A stretch of DNA of 24,007 nt from Chromera velia (lineage: Eukaryota; Sar; Chromeraceae): contig JAHBMJ010003138.1 in assembly GCA_018398765.1 (NCBI GenBank), forward strand, positions 4,223 to 28,229, written 5' to 3'. The notes beneath the pieces are model-generated. The model was given only the letters and a program-made list of their open reading frames with translations, had not been told where the DNA came from and did not search any database. The first letter of the stretch is position 1, and each line of letters starts with the position of its first letter. A program made the position numbers and the translations under genes. This document shows positions 534-24,007 of this stretch, in pieces.

Positions 534-4072
<3,539 letters not shown>

Positions 4073-12141: not shown

Positions 12142-12543
12142 TGTGGAGTCCTACCCTGTGGTGCCGCCCTCTGTAGAGTCCTACCCTATGGCGCCGCCCT
12201 CTGGACCCTTGTATACGCTGTTACAGTATTTGAATGAGCCCACGTGCCGATGCCATGCTCCGCCGCCGCGTGTATATGCAATCGACTTGCATGCATGTAC
12301 GTGTCGTACGCATCGATCAAAGTTGTTGAAGTCGAGTCTGACCTTCGCATTTAAGTATACAATATGTTACTCGAGCAACAGATAGCATCGTTTGAGTCTG
12401 ATGTCTGTTTGTCATAGATGGGGAGTCTGAGACTCTGAGAGAGAGGAACAGAGAGGAGTATAAGTAGAGATTGTGCAATGATAGAATGAACCTAGCTGAT
12501 TGGAATCCCAGATAGCTCTAGAGCTAAACCTTCTGCAAACTGT
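12142..12543 (+). mobile_element. LTR-like repeat, copy 1 (3' truncated)
   Basis: Starts TGTGGAGTCCTACCC and carries two 30-bp direct repeats at its start, a TATAAGTAGAG motif near 12459 and the shared GATAGCTCTAGAGCTA palindrome. It matches 14723 onward in the same orientation but stops at AAACTGT, where the inverted copy 2 begins. The TG start, internal TATA-like motif and multi-copy state suggest a long terminal repeat of a retrotransposon. No reverse transcriptase is nearby. Confidence 0.55.
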
Positions 12544-12975: not shown

Positions 12976-14722
12976 GATCCCCCCATATGTCGAAAGGAGC
13001 AGCAAGGGGATGAAACGAGACAGAAAGAAGAGACGAGATAAAAAGAGACCAGCAGGGCAATCTGCAATGTGTCCGGTCCCTTCCCTCCCTCCTTTTATGT
13101 AGCTACTGACATGCGTAGAGTGTGTTTATGCTCGACAAGACTGTTGAGTCCTTCTGTCGACGAGGACTCCAACTCAATTGCTTATCCCTACGTCAGCTAC
13201 GTATGAAAAGGGCAGAGGACTGTCTGATTATCGCCGCCATGTGCTTAATATGCCTGCGCGTGCCCGCGACTGCCTATGACCACCCTTGTGCCCCTGCACT
13301 GAACTTGGAGGGGGAGTGAGCATTGCAAGGCTGAGCATCAAAGAGGAGGACTGCGAGAACAATAAGCCAAGCGCCGCATGTGCCGCGCATTCCAAACTTC
13401 TGGAGCTCCTTTTAGAAGAGTGACTTTTCTTCTCTCTCGGCTTCTCTTCTTTGTGCATGGCTTCGGAGTCAGACCCCTCATATGGCTGAGAGCACGAGCG
13501 CACGAGGGGGCGCCTTCATTCGCTGTCTCCTTCTCGTTTCCGTCTGCTGCTTTAAAACGTTTTGTGTTATCCCCGGTTTCTTTCTTTGAGAGAAAAAGAC
13601 TGGAAGAGGCCAAGGAAAAATGAGTAGAGGAGGAGTAAAGAAAGAATAAATCTTGAGAGAAACAGAAAGAGATGTCTGTTTCAACGAGAAGAGAAGAAGA
13701 AAAAAAAAGAAAATGAGGGGATAGCCCGTACATGTCTCTTTGTCCCTTCTGTATCTTCTCCCTGCAAGGGGATGTCGGTACTTTGGAAGCCCTTTGGGAT
13801 CTCTAGGTATCGCCTCTCCCCCTTGCAGCATGGGAGTTGATGGGAGCCTTGGTGGAGCCAGCCGCCTCTGCACAAGCATCTGCATGGAGCCAGACGGTAT
13901 GCCGGCAGGCGTCTCCCTCCGATAAGTCTGACCAGGTGCCGTTCATTCGTTGATATCTGTTTTTGGGTGTTCGGTCGATCTACGGTGTTGTTAACAACAG
14001 GCGAAGATGCGTATGCAGTCTTTGGAAAGGAAGTGAGATAGAAGAGAGAGAAGGCAGAGAAGGGAGAGCAAAGCGGAAGTGAGAAGTAAGGGAGCGAAAG
14101 AGGGAAAGATGAAAAAAAAAAATATAGAAAGCTAGGTAGACGACTGTGTGTACATGCATCGGCATGGAGATGCATGCGTGCATGTGACCGCATGCCACTA
14201 GGCCTGACTGTGCCTCACTGTATCTTTCTCTCTGTCGCTCTTTCTGTCTAGCATTTCCGTCTCGTTCTTTCTTTCGCGAAGATCTGAGAGGTCAATGAAA
14301 AGCTGCGGAAACGTAAGACCTAAGGTTTGCATTGGGAAGCTTGCGGCCGTCGAGTGACGGGCTCTGCCGTCAGGTAGAGATGGTGTGCTTTTGCAGGCCA
14401 CGAGCAAGCCAACGTCCCTAAAACTGGTTTTTCGAGGAAAGACCTGGCGGGTTGGCGTTGCCGGCAAGGCAGTGGTGATAGTACCTTTGCGTACATTAAT
14501 CTGATTGACTTGCATCAATGGGAGGAAACTTTTTTGTTTGTCAGCTTTCGCGTCTAGATTTTTTCGACTACCTCCTTGAAGGTGTTCTGTTGGTTGCATG
14601 GGTTTGCATTGTGTCTAGTTGATCGTGTCCTTTTGCTCACCTTTTTTCCCTTTCCGCGCATGCTCGAATGTGTCTGACTGATCGCGGGGACGTGATTTTC
14701 TTGTCCGTGGCCAGGGGAGATC
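12976..14722. other. Region between LTR-like copies, no gene recognised
   Basis: The two flanking LTR-like copies point away from this region, so it is not the interior of one ordinary element. Open frames at 13122-13319 and 14198-14599 (minus, 133 aa, starting with ATG) have unremarkable composition and no motif I recognise. The first contains an internal Met start followed by a signal-peptide-like stretch ending in ATA. No reverse transcriptase, integrase or protease motif is visible. Several GA-rich and CT-rich tracts occur. Confidence 0.45.
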
Positions 14723-15195
14723 TGTGGAGTCCTACCCTGTGGTGCCGCCCTCTGTGGAGTCCTACCCTGTGGCGCCGCCCTCTGGACCCTCGCATGCGCT
14801 ATATTTGAATGAGCCCGCGTGCCGACGCCATGCTCCGCCGCCGCGTGTATATGCAATCGACTTACATGCATGTACGTGTCGCACGCGTCGATCAAAGTTG
14901 TTGAAGTCGAGTCTGACCTTCGCATTCAAGTATACAATATGTTACTCGAGCAACAGATAGCATCGTTTGAGTCTGATGTCTGTTTGTCATAGATGGGGAG
15001 TCTGAGACTCTGAAAGAGAGGAGTATAAGTAGAGATTGTGCAATGATAGAATAAACCTAGCTGATTGGAATCCCAGATAGCTCTAGAGCTAAACCTTCTG
15101 CAAACTGTTGCCTAATTGAATGAGTGTTGCTCACATTCCTTCTCTAGATCTTCCCTAAGGTTCTTATCCTTGCTTTACTTTCTGTCTGGACGCCA
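14723..15195 (+). mobile_element. LTR-like repeat, copy 3 (most complete)
   Basis: Starts TGTGGAGTCCTACCC, with the 30-bp unit repeated at 14723 and 14753, and ends about GGACGCCA. It shares with copies 1 and 2 the TATAAGTAGAG motif (about 15024) and the GATAGCTCTAGAGCTA palindrome, and has AATAAA in the position where copy 1 has AATGAA. A purine run (AGGGGAGATC) precedes the TG. The TATA motif, AATAAA and TG...CA ends fit a U3-R-U5 layout. The neighbouring sequence shows no coding capacity, so it is a solo LTR or decayed element. A tRNA primer site cannot be confirmed. Confidence 0.55.
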
Positions 15196-15930: not shown

Positions 15931-16671
15931 TCAGCCTCTGTGCGCCATTGGGTTTCGTCTTTCAAACATTTTGATGTGCGGTGAGATTTTCGTCCACGCC
16001 GCTTGGAGGACCTCTGGGTGGACCCCCCCCGCCACGTTGGCCTTCCCACTGGTGAATGCAGAAACGCGAACGTCCACGTGGAAGTCTTCAAGCTTTTCGA
16101 ACTTTGCAGCCTTCGCCTTGAAATGGGCATCGAAGGCATTCAGGGCGCTTTGCGTTTTCAAATCAGTCCTCTTCACTGGGACTGTGAGCTTTACTCCAGA
16201 GAAGAAAGTGGTGTCGTACTGTGCTTTCCATCTGGTCGACTTTCCTGCCAATAAATTCAAATTGACGGGAACGCCCACGTCCCCAACTCCCATGACACTC
16301 GACACACTGAAATTGGAAAAACGAATGGGAACGTTCAGCTTGTCCTTTATCCGCTTCGCTACCTGTTTGCACAGAACCTGAGCCTTCTCCATGTCAACAT
16401 AACCTGCCACGTTGATTTGTCCTCCCCTGTAGATGTTGATGTGGACGTACTTTTTGCCCCCTGTTTGGATCTTCACGACCTGTTTACTGGCCCTGAAGTC
16501 ACTGTTGATGAAACACTTCGCAACGTCAGCAAGTTCGATATCACAAGGGGGGTTCAAATCACACCGGGCCCCAAGATTGTGAGGGTATACCCTCGTCGGG
16601 TCTCTCTCACCCGCGAATTCATGCTCCTCTCGCTCAGCAAGCTCCAACTCTTGCCCTATTTCATCGTCCAT
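15931..16671 (-). CDS. Divergent TATA-binding-protein-fold protein (TBP-like)
   Basis: 246 aa in one uninterrupted frame, from ATG at 16671 to TGA. After an acidic N-terminus (1-25) come two TBP-type half repeats. Repeat 1 (about 36-112) has the strand-turn-strand segment YVHINIYRGGQINVAG, and repeat 2 (about 115-236) has HVDVRVSAFTSGKANVAGG, both in the position of the conserved hydrophobic-F-SGK-TG core of TBP. F156-F157-S-G-V fits the FPG element of repeat 2, and F206 fits the second intercalating Phe. Repeat 1 has Y81 and lacks an obvious first Phe. About 30 extra residues (169-197, Lys- and Ala-rich) sit inside repeat 2. Canonical TBP is far better conserved, so this is a TBP-like paralogue or an NCLDV-type TBP. 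The frame continues upstream without an ATG until MVF (25 residues earlier). A GTAGGC...AAGCAG pair (16757 to about 16692) suggests a 5'-UTR intron, which favours the ATG chosen here. Head-to-head with GCSH. Confidence 0.7.
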   Translation of the reverse strand: MDDEIGQELELAEREEHEFAGERDPTRVYPHNLGARCDLNPPCDIELADVAKCFINSDFRASKQVVKIQTGGKKYVHINIYRGGQINVAGYVDMEKAQVLCKQVAKRIKDKLNVPIRFSNFSVSSVMGVGDVGVPVNLNLLAGKSTRWKAQYDTTFFSGVKLTVPVKRTDLKTQSALNAFDAHFKAKAAKFEKLEDFHVDVRVSAFTSGKANVAGGVHPEVLQAAWTKISPHIKMFERRNPMAHRG

Positions 16672-17193
16672 CTCTGCTCTGTCAAAACTTCCTGCTTGAA
16701 AGACCATGTGAAAACAGAAAACGGAAGCCCAGCAAAACTGAGAGGACTTGCGCCTACCGGTTACGCGAGTCACTGCTGGGTTTTTTTAGGCTAAATAGAC
16801 GGGCTCTTATGTCGGAGCGGAAGCGAGATCGAGGTCCTGTACGTTTTGCATCGTTTTGCACGTCAACCCAATGATTGAATCAGACGACTCCGCGATCTGC
16901 GATTTTTGTGTTCTGCGCGGTTCGGCACTATTTCGGCACTGCATGGCCCGGCCGCGGTCCCGACAAAATTAATGGGCCCCGGCGCGCGCGGGCTTGCATG
17001 TACCCCCGCCGCGGCGTTCGCTTGGAGACGGCTGCGACTCCTGCAGCTTCAACCAAATTCCCAGACACATTTTGTGTCTGAGAGAGCATGACTGCGTCAG
17101 CAGTTCCGATGCTTTCGTCACGTCATCTTCCGCCTTCGCAATTCACTCTTTGTTTTCTCTACAAGACTAGCCTGTGCCCTGTCTGTTCCCAAG
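16672..17193. promoter_or_regulatory. Head-to-head promoter region of the TBP-like and GCSH genes
   Basis: These 522 bp lie between two outward-facing start codons. The centre (about 16940-17035) is GC-rich, with GGCCGCGG and GGCGCGCGCGGG, contrasting with the flanks. No clear TATA box is seen near either gene. The probable 5'-UTR intron of the TBP-like gene lies inside it. Confidence 0.5.
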
Positions 17194-17692
17194 ATGTTCG
17201 CAGTGTCTCTGGTTCGTTCCTCCCTCAGTTCGAGTCTTCGCAGTTCGCTTACTTCTGCTCAGCGCCGTCTCTTCTCCACTACGTACTATGCAAAGACCCA
17301 CGAGTGGCTGAAAGTAGACAAGCCGGGCGAGGGCACTCTCGGTATCACCAGTTATGCGAAGGAGCAACTCGGAGAAGTCGTGTATGTAGATCTTCCTGAC
17401 GTCGGAAAGTCTGTGCAGCAGAAGCAGACTCTGGTCTCAATTGAATCCGTCAAAGCCGTCGGAGAAGTCTATGCTCCAGGTGAGTCGAACAGAAAAGAGG
17501 GAGAGAACGGGAAGCGCTAGTTTGTAGACACTTGAAGAGAACTTTCGATTGGGCGTGTCTGCATTGCTTGTGCCTTCGATTCACTGTTTCTTCTCGTAGG
17601 AAGTCGTGCGACTGTTTGAGGAAGTCTTTCGTCTCCGCCCCCCCCCCCTCTGTGTGTGTAAAAAAGAGAGAGTGAGTGGGTGAGTGAGTGAG

Positions 17693-21024: not shown

Positions 21025-21390
21025 CAGCCAACCGGGTTGATCTCATCTTTTCCCTCCCTGTCCCTCTTCCCGTTTGATCCGATCAGATGCCATCATTGCA
21101 CCGAACTAAGTGCCCCAAGCCCCAATACACGCATGCATCGCTTGTATAGCCAAAGTCAGGTTGTCCGGTAGTCAAGTATCGTGTGCGTGCAACATGCACA
21201 GCAGACTCAGCCAACCGGGTTGATCTCATCTTTTCCCTCCCTGTCCCTCTTCCCGTTTGATCCGATCAGATGCCATCATTGCACCGAACTAAGTGCCCCA
21301 AGCCCCAATACACGCATGCATCGCTTGTATAGCTAAAGTCAGGTTGTCCGGTAGTCAAGTATCGTGTGCGTGCAACATGCACAGCACCCT
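21025..21390. repeat. 183-bp tandem duplication
   Basis: Two adjacent copies, 21025-21207 and 21208-21390, both start CAGCCAACCGGGTTGATC. I saw a single interior difference (GCCAAAG versus GCTAAAG near 21152 and 21335). No gene or RNA is recognised in the unit. An open frame starting with a non-ATG codon crosses the second copy but is unsupported. Confidence 0.9.
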
Positions 21391-24007
21391 CAGCGAGGAA
21401 AGAAACGACGCCAGTCAGTCAGTCAGTCAGTCCCGTGGTCCGCATGGGTTTGAAAGAAGGAGGAGAAGCCGCTCTTTCTGTCCCTCCACCGCTTCCTCCC
21501 TCTCTCGCTCTTTCAGTCCCCCAGCCTATCCTTTCCCTTTCCGTCTTGCCGCTTTCTTTCCTTCTTCTTCTGCTGCTGCATTCATGATTGCTTCTTCACA
21601 GATCGATGGATGCCCTGTTGGATTTTTTAAAGTGAATTCAGAATTCGGTCTCTCTCTTTCCTTCGATTTCCCCGACTGCTTCGATCGATCAATGTGTCTG
21701 TTCACCTTCGTGAACCTTCTAGAAGTAGGAATGGATAGTGCGCCTTCATCCATCCTTTCGACAAAAAAAGACAGACTGACTTGCGGTGCAAAATTTGGAC
21801 AGATGAGTGCATGAGAGTTGCTTCTTGCCGGCCCCTCTTCATTTCTTTTATTTCTCTGAAAAGGGACCTGAGTCGATCTAGAGATCCATTGTGTTCGAGT
21901 GCATGCATGCACGACAATAAAACGAAAGAGACGAACGGAACGGAACGGAACGGAACGGAACGGAACGGAACGGTCAAACAAAACAGAACGGAATACCCCT
22001 GTTTACGTCCTTCTGGCTTCCCATTGAACTTCCCCCCCCTTTCGTCCTCCCCCCCTTCTGTTTGACCCACCACCATTTCCTTCTTCGAACAGAATTCTTT
22101 TTGACGACGGACACCTGCCTGCATCATGCAGCCACCCTTTGATCCTCCCATCCCTTTCTTCTTTCTTTCTTTGCGGCGTTTACACGCACCCCACGCTTGT
22201 TCAGGTCGGCTGGAAAGACTTGAAGACAGAAAAAAGAGCAGCGCGTACTCATGGGCAGTCTGTCCCTCCCTCCACGAAGGTCTCACTGACCGTCATACTG
22301 CTTTCAAATTGTGCGAGTTTCAATCTGATTCTCCCCCCTATCTCCTTTTCATTGAAGCGTGAAAATAGGCAGAAGGAAAGAATGGGTTGACTCATGCTCT
22401 GAAACGAAGGCAGATAAGGGAGAGAAAGAAATCCAAAAACCCCTTGACGAGGGCGACCTGATGAAGCCTTCTCTTCATCATTGTGGTTGTTCTCTCTCTC
22501 TCTTTCTCCCTCTTCTCCTGCCTCTGGCGGTCTGACACGGCTTCCAGAGCCTTTCCGCCTTCCACCATTTCCGCCATTCTTTCCGGAGGTCAAACAAGAC
22601 CCACGCGTCGACGGACGGAGGACTGACACAAAGAAAACAGAGATCAGAACAGCAAGAGAGAGACGGAAAGCAAGGACAGGACCACCCTCCGGAACCGCAC
22701 AGGCTACTCATGCTCCACTCCCGAAGCGCGCGCCTGTTTCCTTTCTTTACTCCCGCACCGTGCTCCATCCTTCCTTCTTCCCAACAGACAGACTCACTCT
22801 TCCTTCCATTGACTCATCGGATGGATGGATGGTTTGCAAGATGGTTGACTGACGTAGTGACCGACCGAATAATTCAATGCGGCTGTGCGAAAGTGGGACG
22901 AGGCATCAGTGGACAAGAGGACCATGAAAACATCAAAAAACCCAGGCGACAGATAGATGACAGAGAAGAGAAGAGAAGAGAAGAGACGAGGGAGGGAGAG
23001 AGAACAGAACAGAACTAGGTGGTTGTTGGAGGGAGACGAGGAAGCGAACGGGAGAGAGCCCCCAAGCAGCTTGTAAGCAGTCAGGAAAAGGGTTCATTCG
23101 TTTCATGCACATCTCCACAACATGAAGCACACTATGAGAGTGTTCGATCCCATCCAAACATGCAGACAGTCAGGTCAACAAATCCCTCCGGACCCTGAGT
23201 GAGTGTACGATGAAACGAAAGGGAAGGAACGGAAGTGGAAAGTTTCAAAGAATGACAGACAGAGGCAGAAAGACGATCGGGCGGTCAGGCCACGAGGAGG
23301 CGAAGGAAACGGGGGAGAGGAATGTGCTCAGTCAGTCCCTCTGCGCGAATGCCTCTTGCCAGTCTCCTTGCATTTCGACTTCTGAGCCACCGGCAAGGAA
23401 AGAGAAGGCAAGAGGACAAATTTAAAAGACCACACCGACCACCCCCACCAATTCATCCTCGAGACGTGGTGGGTAGACCTCTGAAAGGAAAAAGAGACAG
23501 GCGGGCGGGCAACGGGTTTTGACGAAATTCCTCTTGTGTCTGCTGTTCGAGAGCAAGTGCACCTGCCTGCCTGCCGGCCGTTTGACATTCCAACCGATGG
23601 AATGTCAACAAACAAACAAACGACGGAAGGAAGGATTCAGCCTGCCTGCCTGCCTTCCTGAAGGATGCACGGGACGGGACGAGACGGGATGGGATGATGC
23701 CCCGACAGGAGGGGGGATCTCCTTTGCTCCCTGACTGACGTCAGACACCCTCCCTCCCTCCCCGCACCAGCATTGCAGGAGGGGGAGAACGCCGCGTCGT
23801 CTGTTTTGATGCCTGCATGGCCCCGTGTTGAGTAGGGGGGGGCGTTCGGGGACATACACTGTTCTTCCGGTCTGGTGCGTGTGGCGAAAGAGGAAGAACG
23901 AAAGATGTGGCGAAAGAGCATGACATGTTGCACCTTATTTTTGTTTGCATTGGACATTGGAGTCTCTCTTGTTGCTCTCTCTATCTTGTCTTCGCCCCCC
24001 CCCCCCC
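21391..24007. other. Right-hand region, no convincing gene
   Basis: CT-rich and GA-rich low-complexity DNA with overlapping frames on both strands. One exon-like segment follows a good pyrimidine tract and CAG near 22205, but no partners with matching phase were found. The last 12 bases of the window are C only. Part of a gene with exons mainly outside the window cannot be excluded. Confidence 0.4.
21936..21973. repeat. (CGGAA)n array
   Basis: Seven full CGGAA units plus CGG occur without interruption. They read as a Phe-Arg-Ser-Val-Pro type frame on the opposite strand, which is an artefact. Confidence 0.95.

Follow-up and report, generated by a model that had tools for sequence, protein, structure and literature searches.

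TBP is one of the most conserved eukaryotic proteins and is thought to be needed at every transcription start. For the dinoflagellate Crypthecodinium cohnii, a review (PMC5029490) describes a TBP-fold protein, TLF, that lacks all four Phe wedges and has no canonical TBP alongside; it likewise gives TLF without TBP for Lingulodinium, where TFIIB was not detected at a cut-off of e-25, and states that the genomes of apicomplexans and ciliates encode one TBP only and miss the same factors. A Plasmodium survey lists a TBP (PFE0305w), a TBP-like protein (PF14_0267) and TFIIB (PMC2821373), and TBPs with three Phe are described from Plasmodium, Toxoplasma, Cryptosporidium and Perkinsus (PMC5825884). 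In a survey of viral TBP-like sequences (PMC7221094), from which we also take the position names N.L5.1, C.L3.2 and C.L3.4, 90% of them are reported to carry Phe at L5.1, the TFIIB signature is described as lost in viruses, and Trp is given at N.L5.1 for the animal paralogue TBPL1/TRF2. Here we describe a gene located in a 24,007-nucleotide stretch of contig JAHBMJ010003138.1 (hereafter, the window), which encodes a true but strongly altered member of the TBP family, with both intercalating Phe of the C-lobe retained and both of the N-lobe replaced.

Membership in the family is indicated by several searches. The Pfam TBP match, at 36.8 bits where the curated cut-off is 22.9, falls in two stretches, the best covering residues 121–234. 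A phmmer search of the PDB sequences at E up to 1 returned 32 distinct sequences, of which 31 are TBPs or fusion proteins with TBP; the best E is 4.9e-5. Scored with a profile built from eukaryotic, archaeal and viral-contig TBPs, the protein reaches 29.0 bits, compared with 5.5 for the best of 1000 shuffles. The NCBIfam TBP models gave five weak matches only, every one far below its cut-off, and PHROGs gave no match. The predicted structure is a two-lobe saddle in which the elements S1-H1-S2-S3-S4-S5-H2 follow one another in the same order in each lobe, and a direct comparison of one repeat with the other gives 32% identity over 34 residues (E 2e-4 for that single comparison). The two half repeats reported in the initial annotation are thus found in both the model and the sequence. 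When the model was compared with the PDB by Foldseek, the first 28 rows were eukaryotic TBPs, with a best E of 3.2e-13 and TM-scores of 0.54–0.61 over the eukaryotic rows; archaeal TBPs have E 4.8e-11 to 2.5e-9.

The insertion of about 30 residues noted earlier in repeat 2 is confirmed: it occupies 32 gap columns in all five reference TBPs, split into 5 + 27 in a larger alignment that took 33 of 90 fetched TBP loci, and is modelled with a helix at residues 174–185, between S3' and S4' (pLDDT 76–81). The strand-SGK-strand core, which had been assigned to both repeats, is canonical in repeat 2 (FTSGKANVAG), but repeat 1 reads YRGGQINVAG. Within these motifs (GGQINVAG and SGKANVAG), Asn replaces Val and Ala replaces Thr at both pseudo-symmetric places; the TBP of M. 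jannaschii likewise has Asn at the first of the two places. Because both repeats carry matching changes, they may represent a rebuilt surface rather than random decay.

Mapping onto yeast TBP places two of the four intercalating Phe in the protein where a canonical TBP has all four. The loss of the first-repeat Phe that had been noticed is therefore wider than described, both N-lobe positions being replaced (F99 by Gln64 and F116 by Tyr81). The DNA-contact residues retained are both C-lobe Phe, S209, K211 and N69, and the losses include N159, L114, L205, V161, V213, T124 and K120. Instead of the two TFIIB-holding glutamates of canonical TBPs, the protein carries Asp153 at C.L3.2 (yeast E186), with the charge kept, and Thr155 at C.L3.4 (yeast E188).

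With canonical eukaryotic TBPs (yeast, Arabidopsis and human), which are its best-ranked structural matches, the protein thus shares the two-lobe saddle, the C-lobe Phe pair and the SGK hairpin of repeat 2, whereas the N-lobe Phe pair is lost, a helical insert is added in the S3'-S4' loop, and N159, two inner Thr and several Val/Leu contacts are changed. As far as the descriptions in the cited sources go, it resembles the dinoflagellate TLF in its TBP fold, in the loss of Phe wedges and in the lack of a detected canonical TBP alongside, and the organisms are related algae, but it keeps two Phe where TLF keeps none (PMC5029490). The three-Phe TBPs of related organisms also break the four-Phe rule, with three Phe there and two here (PMC5825884). 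Plasmodium PF14_0267, another myzozoan TBP-like protein, could be an orthologue, although it stands beside a TBP (PMC2821373). Animal TBPL1, a paralogue of TBP that is likewise cellular, also departs from TBP in an aromatic residue of the N-lobe, with Trp at the place of Tyr81 here (PMC7221094).

Several observations count against reading the protein as a working TBP-family factor. Its identity to the reference TBPs is about 20%, and the fold call was helped by archaeal-type TBPs contained in the alignment on which the structure model was built. Among the 48 positions identical in the five reference TBPs, 17 are retained, namely 5 of 20 DNA-contact positions versus 12 of 28 others (Fisher p 0.24); DNA-contact positions are therefore kept no better than the rest, and DNA binding itself is uncertain. 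The second of the TFIIB-contact glutamates, at C.L3.4, is replaced by Thr155.

The coordinates first given for the gene were correct, and the minus strand has to be added to them: the plus strand carries two stops in the frame, and the 246 residues are encoded on the opposite strand (Table 1). The coding region is uninterrupted, as stated, within a stop-free run of 284 codons. A run of this length was attained in 3 of 200 simulated windows, and the case therefore rests on homology and not on length. As to the putative 5'-UTR intron, an acceptor-like CAG/G, found by eye, lies at 16692/16691, and an in-frame ATG at 16707, 12 codons 5' of the annotated start, would give an alternative product of 258 residues.

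Table 1. Positions of the TBP-like gene, its mapped residues and other genes discussed (window coordinates, except for BRF1)
Feature	Position	Strand	Basis
TBP-like protein, coding region (246 aa + stop at 15931-15933)	15931..16671	(-)	Translation; Pfam PF00352, E 3.5e-9
Repeat 1 (N-lobe), residues 28-112	16336..16590	(-)	Model secondary structure; alignment with five reference TBPs
Repeat 2 (C-lobe), residues 117-234	15970..16323	(-)	Model secondary structure; best Pfam stretch
Insert of ~30 residues, S3'-S4' loop of repeat 2, residues ~169-200	16072..16167	(-)	Gap in five reference TBPs; model
Gln64, for yeast F99	16480..16482	(-)	Mapping; S2-S3 turn of model
Tyr81, for yeast F116 (N.L5.1)	16429..16431	(-)	Mapping
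Phe157, for yeast F190, retained	16201..16203	(-)	Mapping; S2'-S3' turn of model
Phe206, for yeast F207, retained	16054..16056	(-)	Mapping; directly past S4' of model
Glycine cleavage H-protein (GCV_H), first exon, then GTGAGT	17194..17480	(+)	PF01597, E 5.7e-21; head to head with TBP-like gene
Chlorophyll a/b-binding type antenna protein (LHC), exon	2735-3241	(-)	Pfam scan
BRF1 gene, uninterrupted core frame	L095 1252-2238 (G000:C4021)		Only clear TFIIB-family gene in assembly

The window contains 73 open reading frames of at least 90 residues, of which 20 were scanned with Pfam. Two of these, GCV_H and LHC, score above the family cut-off, two have weak matches to domains of unknown function below it, and 16 are without a match; no viral family was found around the TBP-like gene among these 20 of 73 frames. 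The assembly has 58 chlorophyll-binding matches, and the plastid psbA family has no match in it. One alpha-tubulin of the same genome has as its best PDB chains 7tnt and 7miz (924 bits), which we take to be from Toxoplasma, followed by 9r4x (901 bits). The TBP-like gene appears to lie in the nuclear genome of a photosynthetic alga that is a relative of the malaria parasites. The chlorophyll-binding genes, the assembly size (177.8 Mb) and the apicomplexan-like tubulin point to a chromerid, most probably Chromera velia.

Elsewhere in the window, a tandem unit of 183 bp is present in two copies at 21025-21394 (98% matches), and similar units of 30 bp form two short arrays about 2.5 kb apart, at 12142-12203 (TGTAGAGTCCTACCCTATGGCGCCGCCCTC) and 14721-14784 (TCTGTGGAGTCCTACCCTGTGGCGCCGCCC). 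The segment 19940-20370 is AT-rich; on visual inspection, words such as GATTTGAGGTTAA recur in it in both orientations, and the surrounding GC content falls to 0.35-0.39.

No ordinary TBP was found in the assembly beside the TBP-like gene. The protein itself, used as a query, finds only its own locus, as does the Arabidopsis TBP (E 0.0015); PF00352 gives nothing at E up to 0.001 and, with the limit raised to 10, this locus alone (E 0.034). The M. jannaschii TBP finds the locus and one weak extra match (contig C2455, E 2.65), which was dropped as a second TBP: by eye, it overlaps frames of the other strand resembling a P-type ATPase. The same kind of search detects LHC exon pieces of 23–30 residues, so that a TBP of 60–70% identity split into short exons would be expected to show. 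For the TFIIB family, PF00382 at E up to 10 finds one gene only, which is BRF1 and not TFIIB, given that BRF1 chains (6cnb, E 1.7e-47; 6eu0, E 1e-46) stand far above the best TFIIB chain (4.7e-15). PF08271 at E up to 10 ranks the BRF1 gene first, below the family cut-off, followed by 30 weaker matches; the one inspected, on contig C3097, did not resemble TFIIB. A search for the TAF1 family gave no match, and its control gave none either.

The initial annotation had left the choice between a lineage-specific TBP-like factor and an endogenised viral gene, with a leaning to the latter, for which a single open frame and strong divergence could be taken as signs. The frame is indeed open, but the argument from the lack of introns is weak because other genes of this genome also have long uninterrupted frames: the LHC gene is complete in one frame of 211 residues, and the conserved cores of BRF1 (328-residue frame) and alpha-tubulin (407 residues) are unbroken, with an intron apparently near the 3' end in both. 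Against the BFVD, Foldseek returned 60 viral models at E up to 1e-3, the best being annotated as TFIID of a Mimiviridae species (E 6.3e-11); among the 50 matches listed, TM-scores by query are 0.23–0.60 and identities 7–17%. In E-value the eukaryotic TBPs lead, and the best viral models are on a par with the archaeal ones, but in TM-score the best viral models overlap the cellular TBPs. Giant-virus TBP-like proteins share with the protein the two-lobe fold and the high divergence, and differ from it in their weaker E-values, lower identity and mostly kept L5.1 Phe (PMC7221094); this Phe, typical of giant-virus TBPs though not absolute, being absent from 10% of the surveyed sequences, is Tyr81 here, with Phe206 as the C-lobe counterpart. 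Of the TFIIB signature, reported as lost in viruses, the protein lacks one of the two glutamates, and N-lobe DNA contacts are lost as well. In a tree of 35 rows (29 of the 90 fetched TBP loci, the five reference TBPs and the protein without its first 27 residues), the protein lies on the eukaryotic side of a branch supported at 99/100, apart from the archaeal and viral-contig TBPs. However, with about 10 changes per column, the branch leading to the protein is saturated, which also counts against the reading as a TBP-family factor; the protein's composition is odd, and the tree holds no giant-virus sequence. It includes seven of ten viral-contig loci, all on the archaeal side, with L004, L007 and L008 (cut to 98 aa by the choice of frame) left out. 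Those ten archaeal-type TBPs (L003-L012), on contigs called viral and 35–48% identical to an M. jannaschii-led query, came from one of two scans of viral contigs with other TBPs, the second finding none; a scan with the protein itself found no relative there, and all these scans reach close relatives only. The codon log-likelihood per codon of the gene (-0.14) falls inside the broad range set by four other genes of the genome (BRF1 -0.59, GCV_H exon -0.08, tubulin 0.31, LHC 0.35) and beats 2000 of 2000 composition-based synonymous nulls (maximum -0.148), in a weak test with a small reference. The two neighbours that could be named, both ordinary algal genes, the Tyr at N.L5.1 and the order of the Foldseek E-values count against a giant-virus gene, which we regard as very unlikely; the protein is most likely of cellular origin.

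We hold it probable, though far from settled, that the gene belongs to the nucleus of a photosynthetic myzozoan, in all likelihood a chromerid alga, and encodes a lineage-specific TBP-like factor with a promoter role led by the C-lobe. The two-lobe saddle is retained, and in the N-lobe both wedges and most base contacts are gone. For expression, DNA binding, target sequence and partner, we infer the following. The C-lobe is predicted to be still able to wedge DNA through Phe157 and Phe206, and Asp153 would give it an acidic residue for contact with a TFIIB-family partner. The protein would most likely act on non-TATA promoters, the C-lobe leading the DNA contact, and docking of a TFIIB-family adaptor, BRF1 being the only clear one found, could then place a polymerase. 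This explanation overlaps with a possible but less favoured one, in which the protein is the organism's only TBP, serves all three polymerases and has replaced a lost canonical TBP, as reported for dinoflagellates. The four query types that detect this locus alone as TBP, the detection of short LHC exon pieces and the sole BRF1 match agree with such a replacement. However, the assembly, 177.8 Mb in 4040 contigs against a Chromera velia genome that is presumably about 194 Mb, may be incomplete, and an intron-rich canonical TBP could escape searches that were controlled with LHC exons and not with a eukaryotic TBP. Moreover, Plasmodium has a TBP besides its TBP-like protein (PMC2821373), and TBP of Chromera velia is among the subjects of a 2025 survey (PMC12235521); we make no claim that a chromerid TBP-like protein was previously undescribed. 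That the protein keeps the TBP fold without binding DNA and acts as a regulator, for instance as a decoy for TBP partners, is improbable: of the 20 invariant DNA-contact positions, 15 differ, but both C-lobe Phe, S209, K211 and N69 are retained and no second TBP was found to regulate. A decaying pseudogene would explain the great divergence, and is hardly credible in view of the 284-codon open frame, the presence of both lobes and the confidently modelled fold.

A bolder reading, which we put forward tentatively and consider doubtful, is that this photosynthetic alga, a relative of apicomplexans, now does without either canonical TBP or TFIIB and initiates transcription with a half-rebuilt TBP of which only the C-lobe wedges DNA. 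If it is true, TATA-based initiation would have disappeared on at least one further occasion outside dinoflagellates, or else before the chromerid-dinoflagellate split and then partly in apicomplexans. A sole detectable TBP without N-lobe wedges, together with the missing TFIIB signal, would allow a direct test, in an alga, of how much of TBP is required, and it would bear on how the transcription machineries of apicomplexans and dinoflagellates diverged.
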